Assembly (NCBI RefSeq): GCF_907164905.1
Contig: NZ_CAJRAF010000001.1
Location: forward strand, 593,001-657,000
Direction: 5' to 3'
Length of the DNA stretch: 64,000 nucleotides
Origin: Dyadobacter sp. CECT 9275
Lineage (GTDB): Bacteria > Bacteroidota > Bacteroidia > Cytophagales > Spirosomataceae
Below the pieces are notes generated by a model that worked only from the letters and a program-made list of their open reading frames with translations, had not been told where the DNA came from and made no database searches. Position numbers and translations under genes: made by a program. Of the stretch, positions 12,563 through 20,602 are shown piece after piece. Each line of letters begins with the position of its first letter. The stretch's first letter is position 1.

Positions 12563-13843
12563 TCACTGGCTATTTTCCTCGTTTTTGTCGGCAATGTTGA
12601 TCAGATGTATGGTGTTCTGATAATTGTAAAAGACGGAAAGGCCGGAGGTATCACATATTTGTCTGACGATGGACAAGCCCAGCCCCACGGATTCGGGTCC
12701 TGATGATTCCTTTTTAAATCTTTCAAAAAGTCGTGTCGGATCGGTTTTCAGTTCCGAACCTGTATTGCTGATCTGTATCGCATGTGGCCATCCCTGGATA
12801 TGGATTTTTCCGTGTTCATGGTTATGCCGGATGGCATTATTGATCAGGTTGGTCAGTAAAATGTCGGCCAGGGCGGGAGACATTTTTTTTCGGAAATGGC
12901 CCATCCAGTTAATCTCTACCGATATGTTCCGATGGTTTATTATGTCTTCAAAATCATTGAGCTTGTTTTCGGTAAGTTCTTTAAAATCAACAATTTCTTC
13001 GGTACTGAATTGCTGGTTGTCAATTTTGGCAAGTAGTAAAAGCCCTTGGTTGAGCCGGGACATGCGGCGGGAGGCATGGTAGATTTCCTCAATCCAATAG
13101 GTATGTTCCGCGTCCAGATCTTTGGACTGGATAAATTGCTCCACTCTTGCGTTAATCAACGCCAGGGGGGTCTGGATTTCATGTGAGGCATTTTCTGTAA
13201 ATTCTTTCAGACTTCGGTAGTCGTGCTGCATTTTGTCGCCCATTTTTTCAAAAACATCGTTCAGTTCATTGAACTCTGTGATCTCAGTGGGGGGGAGTGC
13301 AAGTTTGTTCTCTTTCGTCCAGTCAAACTGTTTTATTTTAGAGAGCGTATCGTAAAACGGCTGCCAGAGCTTGTCCGACAGCTTGCGGTGAAACCAGTAC
13401 ATGCTCAGTAGCAGCAGTGCCAGGAATATCATCATTGCAACGGAAATGGCCTCGATCAGCTTGTACGACTGGATCATGGATTTGCGGATGGATACTTTAT
13501 GAGGTACCCCGCCGATCATCGTGTAAAATGTCAGCTGACGAAACGGGTCCGCACTATCTTCGTAACGATTGTTGATGAGTGTATCGGTAAAAATGGTCCG
13601 GTTAACGAATTGCCCAAAAACGGGAACCACTTCTATTTTATTTTCAACAAAATAAGAACTGTTACTCCAGGTATCATGTGTTTTCAGATAGGCCTCAAAA
13701 TCCCGGCGTTCCACATTGAGCCTGCTTTCTACTTCTTCGTAGATCATCATTTTTACGATCCAGTAGAATGCAATGCCTGCGGCGAGGTAAATGACCGGGG
13801 AAACGATCAGATACATCCGGCTGGTTTTGGATAGCAGTTTCAA
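12563..13843 (-). CDS. Two-component sensor histidine kinase
   Basis: A 426-residue kinase. Transmembrane helices at about 12-33 and 133-151 enclose a roughly 100-residue periplasmic sensor region; a HisKA domain follows with His221 in the H-box ENASHEIQTPLALI; then an HATPase_c domain with the N-box NLINNAIRHNHEHG and the G-box SVGLGLSIVRQI. Its start overlaps the stop of the response-regulator gene by 4 bases (ATGA), so the two are translationally coupled. The regulator gene is divergent from the TolC/RND efflux operon, and the pair probably senses a compound exported by that pump (inference). The resemblance is to CusS/BaeS-type kinases. Confidence 0.92.
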   Translation of the reverse strand: MKLLSKTSRMYLIVSPVIYLAAGIAFYWIVKMMIYEEVESRLNVERRDFEAYLKTHDTWSNSSYFVENKIEVVPVFGQFVNRTIFTDTLINNRYEDSADPFRQLTFYTMIGGVPHKVSIRKSMIQSYKLIEAISVAMMIFLALLLLSMYWFHRKLSDKLWQPFYDTLSKIKQFDWTKENKLALPPTEITEFNELNDVFEKMGDKMQHDYRSLKEFTENASHEIQTPLALINARVEQFIQSKDLDAEHTYWIEEIYHASRRMSRLNQGLLLLAKIDNQQFSTEEIVDFKELTENKLNDFEDIINHRNISVEINWMGHFRKKMSPALADILLTNLINNAIRHNHEHGKIHIQGWPHAIQISNTGSELKTDPTRLFERFKKESSGPESVGLGLSIVRQICDTSGLSVFYNYQNTIHLINIADKNEENSQ

Positions 13844-14517
13844 GGTGCAGTGAATTTATAACCGATCCCGTAAATTGATTGAATATAGTCCTTTCCTCCC
13901 TTTTCCAGAAGTTTCCGGCGCAGATTTTTGATGTGTGAGTATACCATATCCAGCGAATCGGAGGAGTCGATATGATCGCCCCACAAATGCTCAGCAATGG
14001 ATTCCTTCGTTAAGGCAACATCGATATTGGAAAGAAAATAAAGCAGCAGATCATACTCCTTGCGCGACAGCGCTGTTTCTTTACCGCTCACAAACACCTT
14101 TCTGGCCTGCAGCTGGACGATGATATCATTCCATTGCATGTCATTGTTCCCTCCAAAATTTCGTCTCCGGATCAGTGATTTCACGCGCGCGTTGAGCTCC
14201 GACAAATGAAATGGCTTTGTCAAATAGTCGTCCGAACCGATTTCAAGGCCTTTAATTTTATCTTCCAGTGAATTGCGTGCCGAGATGATAATGATACCTG
14301 TGGTGGCCGCAATTTTTTTGAGCGTTTTGATGATGCCATACCCGTCTCCATCAGGAAGGGTAAGATCAACAATGGTGCAATCATACTGGTAGATACTTAC
14401 TTTTTCATCGGCCTCCCAAAAGCTGTTTGCTACTTCACACACAAATCCTTCCCTGGACAGGTAGTCCATGATGCTCTCTGCAAGCCCTTTTTCGTCTTCA
14501 ACTATTAATATTTTCAT
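13840..14517 (-). CDS. OmpR-family response regulator
   Basis: A 225-residue regulator. The receiver domain (1-115) has the acidic pair at EDE (7-9), the phosphoacceptor Asp51 in IVDLTLPDGDG, and a conserved Lys in YLTKPFHL. The C-terminal winged helix (about 130-223) ends with the recognition helix near SLDMVYSHIKNLRRKL and the wing IYGIGYKF. It is the first gene of a two-gene operon with the kinase. Two 11-bp-spaced direct repeats in the divergent promoter region (14615-14634) and an inverted copy (14566-14574) are good candidates for its binding sites, implying control of the efflux operon and of itself. Confidence 0.92.
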   Translation of the reverse strand: MKILIVEDEKGLAESIMDYLSREGFVCEVANSFWEADEKVSIYQYDCTIVDLTLPDGDGYGIIKTLKKIAATTGIIIISARNSLEDKIKGLEIGSDDYLTKPFHLSELNARVKSLIRRRNFGGNNDMQWNDIIVQLQARKVFVSGKETALSRKEYDLLLYFLSNIDVALTKESIAEHLWGDHIDSSDSLDMVYSHIKNLRRKLLEKGGKDYIQSIYGIGYKFTAP

Positions 14518-14565: not shown

Positions 14566-14634
14566 ATTTGGGAAGTATTCAATAAACCTTTAAAAAGGAA
14601 GTCGAAGGGCCTTTTTCCCAAATGTTTCCCAAAT
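14566..14634. promoter_or_regulatory. Candidate response-regulator binding sites
   Basis: The 9-mer TTCCCAAAT occurs at 14615-14623 and again at 14626-14634, an 11-base repeat step. Its reverse complement ATTTGGGAA lies at 14566-14574, closer to the regulator gene. OmpR-family regulators typically bind tandem direct repeats at about 11-bp spacing, so this arrangement suits the divergently encoded regulator (inference). Confidence 0.5.
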
Positions 14635-14684
14635 TGAATTCTAGTTTCGGGCAAAATTATTCCTTGGTTAACATTATTCACTAC

Positions 14685-16145
14685 ATGAATTATCAGCACC
14701 ACCGAAGTTTTTCCCGAAGCGCGAAGCCTTCTGAGAAAAAATCTTCAGCCCTACCTCTCATGCCGATGTCAGTCAGGCACTTTTGTTTGATTGCCCTTGG
14801 GTTATTTATTTTTTCGTTCAATACTGCTGCCCAGCAGGTATCTCTCCAAGAGATACTGGACCAGGGCAAACAGAATTTCCCTTTCCTGAAATCCAAGCAA
14901 TCGGAAATAAGGAGCGCCGAAAGCCGGATTAAAAGTGTGAAAACAGATTACCTGCCAGCCTTCGTCGTGCAGGATCAGTACACGTTCGGGACCAATAACA
15001 ATGTAAACGGAGGTTTTTTCCCAAATGAAGGTATGGCCTTTTCTCCATCGGGGGGGATCAGGCCGGAAAATATCTACAAAGGTGTTTTCGGGAGTTTTAC
15101 AACCGCCCTGGTAGACTGGCGGGTGTTTAACTTTGGCAAACTGAATGCCAACGTAGCCGCCGCCAACGCGGAACTGACCAGGTCACAGGCGGACTATGAA
15201 AACGAGCTTTTTCAGCATCAGGTCAGGATTGTGGACGCCTATCTTGTTTTGCTGATCAATCAGAAACTTGTAACTGCCCAGGAGCGGAACCTTGAGAGGG
15301 CGCTTGTATTTAAACAGGTTACAGATGCGGCGGTGGGTTCGGGTATGCGGCCGGGCGTGGATAGTTCTCTCGCCAGTGCCGAATATGCCAAGGCCAGGCT
15401 GCTGCTGCTGGAAAGCCAGCGTTCTGAAAAAGCCCAGCGCCTGAGGCTTTCCGAACTGAGTGGTGTTCTCCAGGACAACATTCAGGTGGATTCCATGCAG
15501 TTTTATTCCCGGTTGCCGGTGGGTACGGTTTCGCCGGATGCATTTCTTAAAAATCCGTTACTCAAATTATCACAGACTCAGATAGACGCTTCTGCGGCCA
15601 GAAGCATTTCCATCCGCAAGTCTTCCTTGCCTTCGGTTTCACTTCTGGCGGCGGGAATGGCCAGAGGGTCGGGTGTTTCCAACAAGGATAATGCCTACCG
15701 TACTGATTTCGGAAGTGGTATGAACTATCAGGTATACAATTACTTCTTCGGTATTTCAACGCGCTGGAACCTTACCAATATCCTGAAAGTGAGGAACGAC
15801 TACAAGAGTGAGCAGTTCCAGGCAGAGCGGTTCAGGGAGATTTACAATACACAGAAACTGCAGATGGACCGGCAGCTCCGTGAATCGGATATTCAGTTTG
15901 CGCTTTCCATGGAACAGGCAAGGCTCACACCGGTTCAGCTGAATGCGGCCAGAACGGCGTTTCTTCAGGCTGAGGCACGTTATCAGAACGGGATGACCGA
16001 TCTGTTTACCTTAGCTCAGAGTGTCAACACCCTTAACCGCGCAGAAGTAGATAAGTATGTTGCCAATGGAAATGTCTGGCGCTCGCTGTTAATGAAAGCC
16101 GCCGCTGCCGGAGATCTGTCCCTTTTTCTGAACCAGCTGGAGTAA
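14685..16145 (+). CDS. TolC-family outer-membrane efflux protein
   Basis: The outer-membrane channel of a tripartite efflux pump, about 486 residues from the ATG at 14685. The frame is open to 14622, but that start would lie within the putative regulator sites; Met at 14760 or 14766 would give a shorter leader. A signal segment (FCLIALGLFIFSFNTAAQ) precedes an alpha-helical coiled-coil protein with the two OEP repeats: VSLQEILDQGKQNFPFLKSK at the start and, in the second half, MEQARLTPVQLNAARTAF and ARYQNGMTDLFTLAQSVN. It stands 65 bases before the RND permease-adaptor gene, and the three functions make a complete pump. Confidence 0.9.
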   Translation: MNYQHHRSFSRSAKPSEKKSSALPLMPMSVRHFCLIALGLFIFSFNTAAQQVSLQEILDQGKQNFPFLKSKQSEIRSAESRIKSVKTDYLPAFVVQDQYTFGTNNNVNGGFFPNEGMAFSPSGGIRPENIYKGVFGSFTTALVDWRVFNFGKLNANVAAANAELTRSQADYENELFQHQVRIVDAYLVLLINQKLVTAQERNLERALVFKQVTDAAVGSGMRPGVDSSLASAEYAKARLLLLESQRSEKAQRLRLSELSGVLQDNIQVDSMQFYSRLPVGTVSPDAFLKNPLLKLSQTQIDASAARSISIRKSSLPSVSLLAAGMARGSGVSNKDNAYRTDFGSGMNYQVYNYFFGISTRWNLTNILKVRNDYKSEQFQAERFREIYNTQKLQMDRQLRESDIQFALSMEQARLTPVQLNAARTAFLQAEARYQNGMTDLFTLAQSVNTLNRAEVDKYVANGNVWRSLLMKAAAAGDLSLFLNQLE

Positions 16146-16210: not shown

Positions 16211-19200
16211 ATGTATCAACTCATTCGAACGGCCCTGCGGCAACCCATTTCCATTGTGGTAGTCGTGATTGGCATTCTCTTCTTTTCGATACTTTCTATC
16301 CGGAGTATCCCTGTAGATATCTTTCCCAATCTGGACCTGCCCACCATTTATGTGGTGCAGCCCTATGGCGGTATGGCCCCCGACCAGATGGATGGCTTCA
16401 TTGCCACCCGTTACCAGGATCACTTTCTGTACGTGTCGGGGATCCGGGATGTGGACGTGAAAACCATCCAGGGGCTGTCGCTTATCAAACTTTCTTTTTA
16501 TCCCGGAACCGATATGGCCCAGGCAGCTGCGGAAGTTGCCAATAACGTGTCCCGGGCCAAGGCCTATATGCCCGAGGGAACCGTGCCGCCGCAGGTGGTC
16601 CGGTTTGATGCGAGTTCGGTACCCATCGGGCAGATGGTGTTTGAGAGCTCGTCCCGTTCCCTGAACGAGATTCAGGATTTTGCATCTTCCCGCGTACGTC
16701 CTATGTTTTCCAGGATTGAGGGGGTATCCAGCCCGCCGCCATTCGGAGGAAACCAGCGGACCATCGTGATACGGGTTGACCCCGAGCGGATCAGGAGTTA
16801 TCATCTCACACCCGAAGAAATCATCAAATCCATTGTGGTCAACAACCAGCCATCACCTGCCGGTAACATCAGAATGGGAGACCGTACCTTAATGACCCCC
16901 GTTAACTCGCTCATCAACCGGCCTGAAGACTTTCTGAATATCCCCATCCGGATTGGTGCGGGGCCAACGGTTTTTGTGAGGGATATAGGTACCGTGGAAG
17001 ACGGCGCCGATATGACTGTGAGTTATGCCCTGATCAACGGAAAAAGGGCGGTATATATCCCGGTAGTAAAAAAATCAGATGCCTCTACGCTGGATGTGGT
17101 CAATAACATCAGAGCGGCACTGCCGCAACTGCGGAATGCGGTACCCGAAGACGTCAAGATCAGTTATGAATTTGATCAGTCGGTATATGTAACTAACTCC
17201 CTGAAAAGTCTGATCACGGAAGGTATCCTGGGGGCTTTGCTCACTGGTTTGATGGTACTGCTCTTCCTGCGCGACTGGCGCAGTGTGATCATCGTGATCG
17301 TGACCATTCCTATTTCCATACTTTCGGCGGTGATACTGATGAACCTTTTTGGGCAGACGATTAATATCATGACACTGTCAGGACTGGCCCTGGCCATCGG
17401 GGTTTTGGTTGACCAGGCCACGGTGACCATTGAAAACATTCACCAGCACCAGGAAATGGGCAAACCCAAGGAGCAGGCGATTTGGGATGCCTGCAAGGAA
17501 ATTGCATTCCCAGAATTCCTGATCCTGCTGGCTATTCTGGCGGTGTTTGCACCGTCATTTGTCATGAGCGGCATTCCAAGGTCCATGTTTCTGCCGCTTT
17601 CGCTTGCCGTAGGTTTTGCAATGATCGCTTCTTTTTTACTGTCCCAGACCCTGGTTCCTGTACTGGCCAACTGGTTGCTGAAAAGCCACCCGCACCATGA
17701 AGCGCCAACGCTTGCCCTGGATGAGCGTGAAATTCATGATGTGATAGAGGAGGGGGCTCATCCTTCACTTCCGGTGAAAGGTTTCGAAAAATTCAAACTG
17801 AGGTATCTGGGTGTGCTGGAAGGGGTGATCGGCAAAAGATCATTCGTCATTCCTGCCTATCTCATAGTTTCGGTTCTGTTAATCGTGGGTGGTTTTATGC
17901 TGATTGGTACTGATATTCTGCCCAAAGCCAACAGCCACCAGTTCCAGATGCGCCTGCGGGTTGCCGATGGTACCCGGGTAGAGCGTACCGAAACAGCTAC
18001 GCTGAAAGTGCTTGACCTGATCAAATCGGAGGTAGGAAAAGAACATGTGGAGATTTCCTCGGCTTATGTCGGCACGGTACCTTCCAGTTATGGTACATCC
18101 AATATTTTTGTTTTCAACAGCGGCCCCCATGAAGCGGTGCTGCAGGTATCGCTGCACGAAGACTTTCCGGTTCGGATGGATATGCTAAAGGAAAAACTAA
18201 GGGAGCGGATCGCAAAAGAAATTCCCGCTTTGAAAATATCTTTTGAGCCGATAGAACTTGTTGATAAAATTATGAGCCAGGGTGCTTCCACACCTATTGA
18301 GGTAAGCGTTGCGGCAAAGAGCGTGGAAGATGCAGGTAAGTTTGCCCGGAAGATTCAGGCAGAAATGGAAAAAATAGCTTTCCTGCGCGATGTACAGATA
18401 GCCCAGCCACTTGCCTACCCGATCCTGAATGTGGATATCAACCGCGAACGCGCCGGGCAACTCGGTATTACCTCCACGCAGGTTGCAAGGTCCATGGTGG
18501 CAGCAACTTCTTCCAGCCGGTTCACTGATAAAAATCTTTGGCTGGATAACTCCAAAGGGCTCGCCTATCAGGTTCAGGTACAGATACCCGAATACCAGAT
18601 GACTTCGGTGGAAGACATTGGAACCATACCTTTGAAAACTGGGGCAAGCAATCCGCTCCTGGCAGATGTTGCCACATTTTCGGAGAAAACGGCTCCGGGA
18701 GAATACGACAGAGCAGGTCCGAACCGGCTCGTGACGGTGACGGCAAATCTCCATAAAAAGGATTTGGGTGCGGCCACGAAGGCGGTGACCGCGGCTATAA
18801 AAAATGCGGGAGAACCTCCAAGAGGTGTATTGGTGGAGCTCAAAGGCCAGTCAAATCTTTTGACCGAAACGCTCGGCAGTTTACAGACCGGGCTGATGAT
18901 CGCGATCGTAATCATGTTCCTGCTAATGGCCGCTACATACCAGTCGTTCAAGCTGTCAATGGTAGTACTTTCCACTATTCCGGCCGTGGTAGTGGGGGCA
19001 ATAGGTTTGCTGCTTCTGACCGGAGCCACGTTGAATCTGCAATCCTACATGGGGCTGATCATGTCCGTGGGGGTATCTGTAGCCAATGCGATCTTGATGG
19101 TTACCAACGCCGAAAATTTAAGATTGCAACTTAAGGATTCCTCCAAAGCCGTAGTACTTGCTGCCGGCAGCCGGATACGTCCGATCCTGATGACGAGTAT

Positions 19201-20602
19201 CGCGATGATCGCGGGCATGGTACCGATGGCGTCAGGGCTGGGAGAAGGCGGAGACCAGATAGCCCCTTTGGGTCAGGCGGTAATCGGTGGGCTGATCGCC
19301 TCCACACTTGCTTCGCTTTTAATCCTGCCCGCCATTTTTACAATGGTTCAGAAAAAAGCATCAGTTGAATCAATATCAATGGATCCGGAAGATCCTGAAA
19401 GTAATTTCTTTAAAAAACTACAACTGTCCATGTCTATGAACACTTTAAAATCCCTGACCCTCTTCGTGATTGTAAGCTTTGCTCTGGCGGGCTGCGGCTC
19501 GGAAGCGGAAACCGAAAAGAAAACCGAAGAACACAAAACGGAGGTACCCGCTGCTACCGAGCTCATATCCGTGCAAAGCCTCAAACCTGCTAAGGAAATT
19601 GCATTACCAGGAGAGCTGAAACCCTGGAATAAGGTGAGTATTCATCCGAAGGTCAAAGGTTTTGTGAAAACGGTTCAGGCGGACAGAGGTACTGTTGTGA
19701 GAAAAGGGCAGGTACTGGCGGTACTGGAGGCACCAGAAATCCTGACGGAGCTCAACCAGGCTAAAGCACAGCTCATTTCAGCCGAGGCGGCGGTAAGTGA
19801 GTACGATACCAAGTACAAAACCAGCAGGCTCACCTACGGCAGAATGCTGAGAACCAACCAGACGCAGGGAGCGGTTTCGCTGAACGAGCTGGACGTTGCC
19901 CATGCCCGTGTGCTGACCGACAGCTCGCTTGCAGCTGTATCCAGGGGGAATCTTCAGGCAGCACGCTCGAACATGGAAACTAAATCCCAACTGGCCAGAT
20001 ACCTTACCGTCACGGCTCCTTTTGATGGTATCATCACCGAACGGAACATCAGTCCGGGCGCGCTGGTGGGCCCGGGAGAAAATAATGCCCGGCCTTTGTT
20101 TATTCTGGAAGACAACAAAAAACTCCGGCTTACACTGGCCATTCCCGAAAACCTGTCGGGGTCCGTTCCAGCCAAGGGAAATGTAACTTTCACAGTACCT
20201 GCGAGCCCTGAAAAACAATATAGTGCCGTTTTTGCGAGGAGCTCCCGAACTTTGTCGGAGGAAAACAGGGCCATGATGGCTGAATTCGACGTGGATAACC
20301 GCGACAATCAGTTGAAGGCCGGGATGTATGCCCAGGTACAGCTGCATGTTGAGCGTTCAGAAAATACACTTTTTGTGCCTGTAAGTTCTGTAGTCACATC
20401 AAGTGAGAAGATATTCGTGATCAGGCAAAAGGATAATAAAGCGGAATGGGTGTCTGTGAAGAAGGGTACCGTGGTGGATACGCTGGTGGAAGTGTTCGGG
20501 AATCTGCAGGCCGGTGATCCGATTGTAAAAAAAGCATCGGAAGAAATCAGGGACGGGCAGCAGCTGGAAGGCAAAGCCAAACTAACTGCGAAAGCTGAAT
20601 AA
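16211..20602 (+). CDS. RND efflux permease fused in frame to its periplasmic adaptor
   Basis: A 1463-residue reading frame. Residues 1-1060 are an RND permease: the first membrane helix at about 11-30, the porter domains, TM4 with GVLVDQATVTIENI (Asp401), a second porter half, TM10 with SVGVSVANAILMV, and a last helix ending near residue 1050. Residues 1076-1463 are a complete membrane-fusion (adaptor) protein with its own signal-like helix and lipobox ALAGC (Cys1095), a biotinyl-lipoyl-like arm (GFVKTVQADRGTVVRKGQV), a helical hairpin, and the barrel domains. The join has no stop codon. The former signal peptide would act as a 13th helix and place the adaptor in the periplasm, which is topologically possible. 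An A6 run just before the join makes a one-base difference a real alternative. The substrate is unknown. Confidence 0.85.
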   Translation: MYQLIRTALRQPISIVVVVIGILFFSILSIRSIPVDIFPNLDLPTIYVVQPYGGMAPDQMDGFIATRYQDHFLYVSGIRDVDVKTIQGLSLIKLSFYPGTDMAQAAAEVANNVSRAKAYMPEGTVPPQVVRFDASSVPIGQMVFESSSRSLNEIQDFASSRVRPMFSRIEGVSSPPPFGGNQRTIVIRVDPERIRSYHLTPEEIIKSIVVNNQPSPAGNIRMGDRTLMTPVNSLINRPEDFLNIPIRIGAGPTVFVRDIGTVEDGADMTVSYALINGKRAVYIPVVKKSDASTLDVVNNIRAALPQLRNAVPEDVKISYEFDQSVYVTNSLKSLITEGILGALLTGLMVLLFLRDWRSVIIVIVTIPISILSAVILMNLFGQTINIMTLSGLALAIGVLVDQATVTIENIHQHQEMGKPKEQAIWDACKEIAFPEFLILLAILAVFAPSFVMSGIPRSMFLPLSLAVGFAMIASFLLSQTLVPVLANWLLKSHPHHEAPTLALDEREIHDVIEEGAHPSLPVKGFEKFKLRYLGVLEGVIGKRSFVIPAYLIVSVLLIVGGFMLIGTDILPKANSHQFQMRLRVADGTRVERTETATLKVLDLIKSEVGKEHVEISSAYVGTVPSSYGTSNIFVFNSGPHEAVLQVSLHEDFPVRMDMLKEKLRERIAKEIPALKISFEPIELVDKIMSQGASTPIEVSVAAKSVEDAGKFARKIQAEMEKIAFLRDVQIAQPLAYPILNVDINRERAGQLGITSTQVARSMVAATSSSRFTDKNLWLDNSKGLAYQVQVQIPEYQMTSVEDIGTIPLKTGASNPLLADVATFSEKTAPGEYDRAGPNRLVTVTANLHKKDLGAATKAVTAAIKNAGEPPRGVLVELKGQSNLLTETLGSLQTGLMIAIVIMFLLMAATYQSFKLSMVVLSTIPAVVVGAIGLLLLTGATLNLQSYMGLIMSVGVSVANAILMVTNAENLRLQLKDSSKAVVLAAGSRIRPILMTSIAMIAGMVPMASGLGEGGDQIAPLGQAVIGGLIASTLASLLILPAIFTMVQKKASVESISMDPEDPESNFFKKLQLSMSMNTLKSLTLFVIVSFALAGCGSEAETEKKTEEHKTEVPAATELISVQSLKPAKEIALPGELKPWNKVSIHPKVKGFVKTVQADRGTVVRKGQVLAVLEAPEILTELNQAKAQLISAEAAVSEYDTKYKTSRLTYGRMLRTNQTQGAVSLNELDVAHARVLTDSSLAAVSRGNLQAARSNMETKSQLARYLTVTAPFDGIITERNISPGALVGPGENNARPLFILEDNKKLRLTLAIPENLSGSVPAKGNVTFTVPASPEKQYSAVFARSSRTLSEENRAMMAEFDVDNRDNQLKAGMYAQVQLHVERSENTLFVPVSSVVTSSEKIFVIRQKDNKAEWVSVKKGTVVDTLVEVFGNLQAGDPIVKKASEEIRDGQQLEGKAKLTAKAE
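19412..19439 (+). other. Permease-adaptor junction with A6 run and latent ATGA overlap
   Basis: A run of six A bases lies at 19412-19417. As written, the permease frame continues through it into the adaptor's ATG at 19436-19438. With one base fewer the permease would end at TGA 19437-19439, which overlaps that ATG as ATGA, the usual layout of coupled genes. A second in-frame ATG is at 19430. Confidence 0.8.

Follow-up and report, generated by a model that had tools for sequence, protein, structure and literature searches.

A Dyadobacter efflux gene that fuses permease to adaptor and retains a candidate start codon for a free adaptor

Can a single gene supply both the permease and the adaptor of an efflux pump, and in what ratio would it do so? 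This question is raised by an open reading frame (ORF) in Dyadobacter sp. CECT 9275. It lies in a stretch of 64,000 nucleotides (assembly GCF_907164905.1, contig NZ_CAJRAF010000001.1, positions 593,001 to 657,000), which is called the window here and from whose first letter all positions are counted. In this ORF, the frame of a resistance-nodulation-division (RND) permease runs on, uninterrupted by a stop codon, into that of a complete adaptor of the lipoprotein type. The two parts come from known families, and what appears to be new is their natural fusion with a retained adaptor start. The explanation that we favor, with a probability of about 0.65, is that one gene specifies two products that overlap, namely a long chain of permease and adaptor and the adaptor as a free lipoprotein, and that the fusion took place once, in the Dyadobacter lineage now carrying the gene. 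The parts of the gene are as follows, with counts referring to distinct orthologous sequences.

16211..20602, + strand: whole fused ORF, ATG start, 1463 codons plus stop, open in 33 of 33
16211..19408, + strand: RND permease part, residues 1-1066, with PF00873 at residues 5-1046
19403..19435, + strand: linker, residues 1065-1075, with stops in 0 of 33
19409..19450, + strand: residues 1067-1080, where synonymous variation is lowest in the gene, interpreted as the probable start region of the free adaptor
19436..19438, + strand: internal ATG, Met1076, proposed second start, in 33 of 33
19436..19492, + strand: predicted lipoprotein signal peptide, residues 1076-1094, gap-free in the 33 sequences
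19493..19495, + strand: lipobox Cys1095, in 33 of 33, following LAG in the window sequence
19493..20599, + strand: mature adaptor (RND_mfp/HlyD), with TIGR01730 at residues 1118-1451

The permease match is full length: PF00873 (ACR_tran) scores 655.6 bits against a cut-off of 28 and covers model positions 2-1020 of 1021. This part closes with the cytoplasmic tail SxDPEDPES-F, which is common to relatives with separate genes. The second part is assigned to the RND adaptors by TIGR01730 (RND_mfp; 162.6 bits, cut-off 94.9), and matches to PF16576 and PF13437 (HlyD) fall inside residues 1142-1374.

Is the join genuine? Relatives were fetched with six peptides, four from the permease and two from the adaptor. 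Because none of them spans the join, this first fetch was not selected for fusion. It yielded 76 loci (the best 80 of 93 matches), and all 25 labelled Dyadobacter were fused. A search of 48 Dyadobacter genomes found an orthologue of at least 83% identity in 33, only more distant paralogues in nine, and no match at an E-value of 1e-250 in six; direct translation showed 33 of 33 orthologues to be fused. The two Dyadobacter sets overlap and together comprise 58 fused loci with 33 distinct gene sequences. Because the frame is open in all of these distinct sequences, a sequencing or assembly error is not the explanation. The fused reading frame described in an earlier note on this DNA is therefore real, with its lipoprotein signal and lipobox Cys1095 retained, and the comparison with related genomes that the note proposed bears it out. 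Across 149 classified loci, the 58 fused ones stand beside 90 with a stop between permease and adaptor and one (L074) that lacks the permease end.

The unfused loci suggest where the gene came from. Separate permease and adaptor genes occur in relatives from Larkinella, Spirosoma, Fibrella, Runella, Siphonobacter, Chryseolinea and Xanthocytophaga. Ordinary sets of outer membrane factor, RND permease and adaptor in Spirosomataceae and their relatives (Larkinella, Spirosoma, Runella, Siphonobacter) share the gene order, the lipoprotein adaptor and 70-83% permease identity with the Dyadobacter gene, often with an ATGA overlap, but they differ from it by a stop between permease and adaptor in 90 of 90 unfused loci. 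Of the 34 separate relatives whose starts were scored, 17 have an ATGA in which the permease stop TGA shares bases with the adaptor ATG, and in the other 17 the two are spaced. ATGA is still present at the Dyadobacter junction, where its ATG has come to lie in the permease frame and its TGA in the +1 frame. A tree of 74 permeases, built from 33 fused and 41 separate rows with the join excluded, places all fused rows on one side of a branch with a support of 100 in the Shimodaira-Hasegawa-like approximate likelihood ratio test (SH-aLRT). The tree was built with a quick method that gave long-branch warnings elsewhere in the tree, from rows that remained after leaving out separate ones with less than 59% identity (less than 60% from L081 on), a stop in the matched part or a start after residue 5, as well as L113-L120. 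The permeases of two contigs labelled as Thalassovita (L023, Pseudomonadota) and Flavobacterium sp. SUN052 (L031) fall among Cytophagales in this tree, by transfer, mislabelling or binning error.

Among other candidates in which the two parts lie together, 20 of 20, 6 of 6 and 9 of 9 had separate genes, which with the 90 above makes 125 other classified loci with separate genes. Among the loci fetched from genomes of the genus (48), family (222), order (390) and phylum (395), no fused homologue beyond the 33 was found, where all spanning matches listed for genus, order and phylum were fetched, family matches were those listed and at most two candidates per genome were scored at the family, order and phylum levels, so that a lower-ranking fused paralogue may escape. 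Genome-search matches that span both parts read through stops, and the open-frame length there is no evidence of fusion. Many such matches (30-74% identity, in Dyadobacter paralogues and other genera) had suggested further fused families, and each one fetched has a stop between the parts. The same 7.2 Mb genome holds four more permeases of the group (53-55% identity), each adjoining a separate adaptor match; of these, L002-L004 were fetched and proved to be unfused.

Has the start of the former adaptor gene survived inside the long frame? The codon of Met1076 is ATG in every fused sequence. Synonymous variation in each codon column was scored against other columns of the same amino acid, using eight interval widths from 9 to 31 codons. 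The lowest interval of the whole gene lies within residues 1056-1085 and covers residues 1067-1074 at all eight widths; for residues 1067-1080, at width 15, the combined z is -6.1. The gene's true start served as a positive control and ranks third at six of the eight widths, fourth at one and fifth at one. The junction interval also ranks first in four of four subsets, including eight diverse members, an 11-member clade and the 22 others.

The sequence context of the start points in the same direction. It was scored with a matrix from 102 unambiguous starts in 400 kb of the same genome, none of them from the fused locus, on 31 of the 33 fused sequences (L056 and L112, whose permease match does not begin at residue 1, were left out). 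The mean score of the internal ATG is 6.9. The training starts score 6.8, the gene's own start scores 7.9, and 2273 other ATGs of these genes score -8.2 (standard deviation 4.9). The internal ATG is the top-ranking one in each of the 31 genes. It is on a par with the true adaptor starts of relatives whose genes are separate, which reach 4.1 (17 overlapping) and 6.2 (17 spaced) with the same matrix; these are the 34 scored starts, L036 having no usable start and three of the 17 spaced picks lacking a Cys at the expected place. Additionally, in 25 of the 31 genes no codon position is less structured than the 40 bases around the internal ATG (a tie counting as first place), and in the remaining six its ranks are 7, 14, 21, 33, 46 and 261 of about 1451. 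By context and base-level constraint together, Met1076 thus carries the computable marks of a working start codon, though more weakly with small training sets, and a free adaptor is therefore expected besides the long chain. For this reason, the forced 1:1 ratio of permease to adaptor that the earlier note deduced from the fusion is not supported. A further in-frame ATG at 19430-19432, two codons before Met1076, occurs in Dyadobacter sp. CECT 9275 only (1 of 33).

What follows Met1076 has, in all 33 sequences, the form of a bacterial lipoprotein signal peptide with a lipobox Cys. The residue before Cys1095 is A in 19, S in 13 and G in one. The hydrophobic core measures 14 residues with a mean Kyte-Doolittle value of 2.15 and an invariant length, and the net charge of residues 1065-1081 is +3 or +4. 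In the segment that holds Cys1095, the ratio of non-synonymous to synonymous polymorphism (pN/pS) is 0.54, compared with 0.065 in the permease, and the cysteine itself never changes. The genome contains two matches each to LspA (PF01252) and Lgt (PF01790), at G000:C1:311660-312175, G000:C2:303954-304382, G000:C1:237708-238448 and G000:C1:1247369-1248085. RND permeases, as in AcrB, terminate in the cytoplasm. Together with the positive charge before the helix, this predicts an N-in insertion that would deliver the adaptor to the periplasm. The earlier suggestion that the signal helix places the adaptor outside is thus in keeping with RND topology and charge. Its other half, a lasting 13th membrane segment, is no more likely than a cleaved signal, since the core has the invariant length of a lipoprotein signal. 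The invariance of Cys1095 suggests that Lgt and LspA probably cut the long chain as well.

The linker offers a way to ask whether the long chain matters at all. Its neutral evolution was simulated along the third-position tree (length 16.4) in 300 runs per rate. Stops arose in 10.7 of 33 leaves at the full rate and in 6.1 of 33 at 0.3 of it, and 0% and 1.7% of the runs, respectively, stayed free of any stop. The lower rate approximates the observed reduction in synonymous divergence (dS) of the linker, 0.546 vs. 1.889. The sole indel in the linker is a one-codon deletion, found in Dyadobacter sp. CECT 9275 and L009. Because a linker without stops lies beside a conserved internal start, both the long chain and the free adaptor look selected, and the evidence is stronger for the free adaptor.

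From the conserved fusion, start region, lipobox and stop-free linker, which are directly observed, we infer the following course of events. The frames of an ordinary permease-adaptor gene pair would have come into register once. Initiation at 16211 would give the long permease-adaptor chain, and initiation at the former adaptor start, the ATG at 19436, would give the adaptor alone, as a lipoprotein, from the same message. In the long chain, the signal peptide after the cytoplasmic permease tail would act as an N-in helix, and the adaptor would reach the periplasm. Lgt and LspA would then probably lipidate the long chain and cut it before Cys1095, leaving an adaptor identical to the free form. 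Each permease would thus be supplied with one adaptor in cis and with free adaptor in addition, a combination that could satisfy the ratio of roughly two adaptors to one permease favored for such pumps and the adaptor excess required by the 3:6:3 view (PMC4446572). It is also conceivable, although improbable, that the long chain stays uncut and that the pump carries three adaptors tethered to the permease trimer by a 13th helix, alternating with three free lipoproteins in a six-membered ring.

Several observations count against the explanation by two products. The dip at residues 623-646 (window 18077-18148) has the second-lowest synonymous variation at all eight widths, and there is no ATG there, so no start explains it. 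Smaller training sets rank the internal ATG first in only 5 of 31 genes (25 starts from the window), 13 of 31 (28 from the same genome) or 0 of 31 (28 from other genera), although it still scores above the mean of the other ATGs. Conservation of Cys1095 is no proof that the long chain is cleaved; sequence cannot decide whether LspA acts on it, because the free adaptor alone would keep the same site. Finally, at 0.15 of the neutral rate, 15% of the simulated linkers have no stop. This last figure also favors an explanation in which the adaptor comes from the internal start, the extended permease works alone and the long chain is an unimportant by-product, its frame open by chance or through constraint on the start region, which at the level of bases would lower the chance of stops. 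Nevertheless, at 0.3 to 1.0 of the neutral rate all 33 frames are open in just 0-1.7% of the runs, and the variation seen in codons 1068-1069, which are not AAA AAA in 10 of 33 sequences, never produces a stop. This possibility is unlikely.

The earlier note had read the gene as a lasting fusion that makes the long chain only, with the signal helix as a 13th membrane segment and one tethered adaptor per permease. The open frame in 33 of 33 sequences and the stop-free linker agree with this, and engineered or linked fusions of membrane fusion protein (MFP, the adaptor) and RND permease have been published and used in structural work (PMC6447562, PMC4754349). However, the start-like context and the synonymous dip at Met1076 would be left unexplained, as would the invariant lipobox Cys and the fixed length of the signal. 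This reading is slightly less probable than that of a by-product. A polyprotein, in which the long chain alone is translated, LspA splits it and Met1076 is unused, would account for the invariant lipobox and the presence of Lgt and LspA, and it has a precedent in the cytochrome b/c1 polyprotein fbcH, which is split by signal peptidase. It does not account for the start context or the synonymous dip and is very improbable. An assembly error has hardly any likelihood left, and neither has programmed slippage that would yield two ordinary genes after all. An A6 run is indeed present at 19412-19417, and six or more A occur at this site in 23 of 33 sequences, but the ten with fewer are equally open and 33 distinct sequences agree. 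Slippage on the run was rejected on these grounds, and the 33 open frames also answer the one-base error in it that the earlier note named as fatal to the fusion. The preferred explanation remains that of one gene with two products.

The neighbors of the fused ORF are as follows.

14622..16145, + strand: TolC-family outer membrane factor of the same pump (PF02321), just upstream of the fused ORF
12563-14517, - strand: two divergent genes, a predicted response regulator and a histidine kinase, named from protein sequence

Of the 26 fused loci with numbers up to L080, 25 have an outer membrane factor match next to the permease, and L025 has too little upstream DNA. Where the upstream DNA is long enough, divergent regulator-like genes adjoin the pump in nearly every fused locus, as they do in many separate relatives, and the kinase/regulator pair is likely to be the regulator of the pump. 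The permease itself departs from AcrB at positions that we take to correspond to the proton-relay residues D407, D408 and K940. D401-Q402 and A958 (window 17411-17416 and 19082-19084) are found there in all 33 fused sequences, that is, D-Q and A instead of the AcrB residues. Nearly all of the 88 relatives with separate genes have Q or E and A or S at these positions. The non-AcrB residues are a trait of this RND branch and not of the fusion, and membership in ACR_tran is unaffected. Energy coupling in the branch may differ, and an AcrB-like mechanism is less likely.

How does the gene compare with known systems? In the open papers searched, no natural RND-adaptor fusion was found, only engineered ones. 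An engineered AcrB-AcrA fusion is reportedly the subject of Hayashi 2016, going by its title. Engineered AcrB-AcrA or RND-MFP fusions resemble the Dyadobacter gene in having permease and adaptor in one chain. They are, however, man-made for structural or functional work, whereas the Dyadobacter fusion is natural, apparently of single origin, and has a conserved internal start. The cytochrome b/c1 gene fbcH encodes a polyprotein split by signal peptidase. There, as in the Dyadobacter gene, an internal signal peptide and an exported domain come after a polytopic membrane protein, but signal peptidase I acts on fbcH, in contrast to the lipobox here. The closest proven analogue of the gene logic that we encountered is Cas11b, which is made from an internal methionine of cas8b (PMC11899642). 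In both cases, a long subunit and its C-terminal part as a free subunit would come from one gene with an in-frame internal start. The difference is that Cas11b belongs to a cytoplasmic CRISPR complex and is experimentally proven, whereas the Dyadobacter gene concerns a membrane pump and is a prediction from sequence.

The number of adaptors per permease has long been argued among 3:3:3, 3:6:3 and 3:9:3, and the fused dimeric adaptor DSY0927 and the two-adaptor pump TriABC have been cited for 3:6:3 (PMC4446572). These are gene layouts that bear on adaptor number, as the Dyadobacter gene does, but in them, adaptor is joined to or paired with adaptor, whereas in Dyadobacter, adaptor is joined to permease. 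If the long chain were to remain uncut beside the free adaptor, the gene itself would fix a 3:6:3 architecture and would make the two adaptor positions inequivalent. A natural one-frame gene with a second adaptor start makes both the ratio and the difference of the adaptor positions testable. More generally, the gene would show how a fusion can persist without loss of the separate product, which annotation of the long ORF alone would miss.

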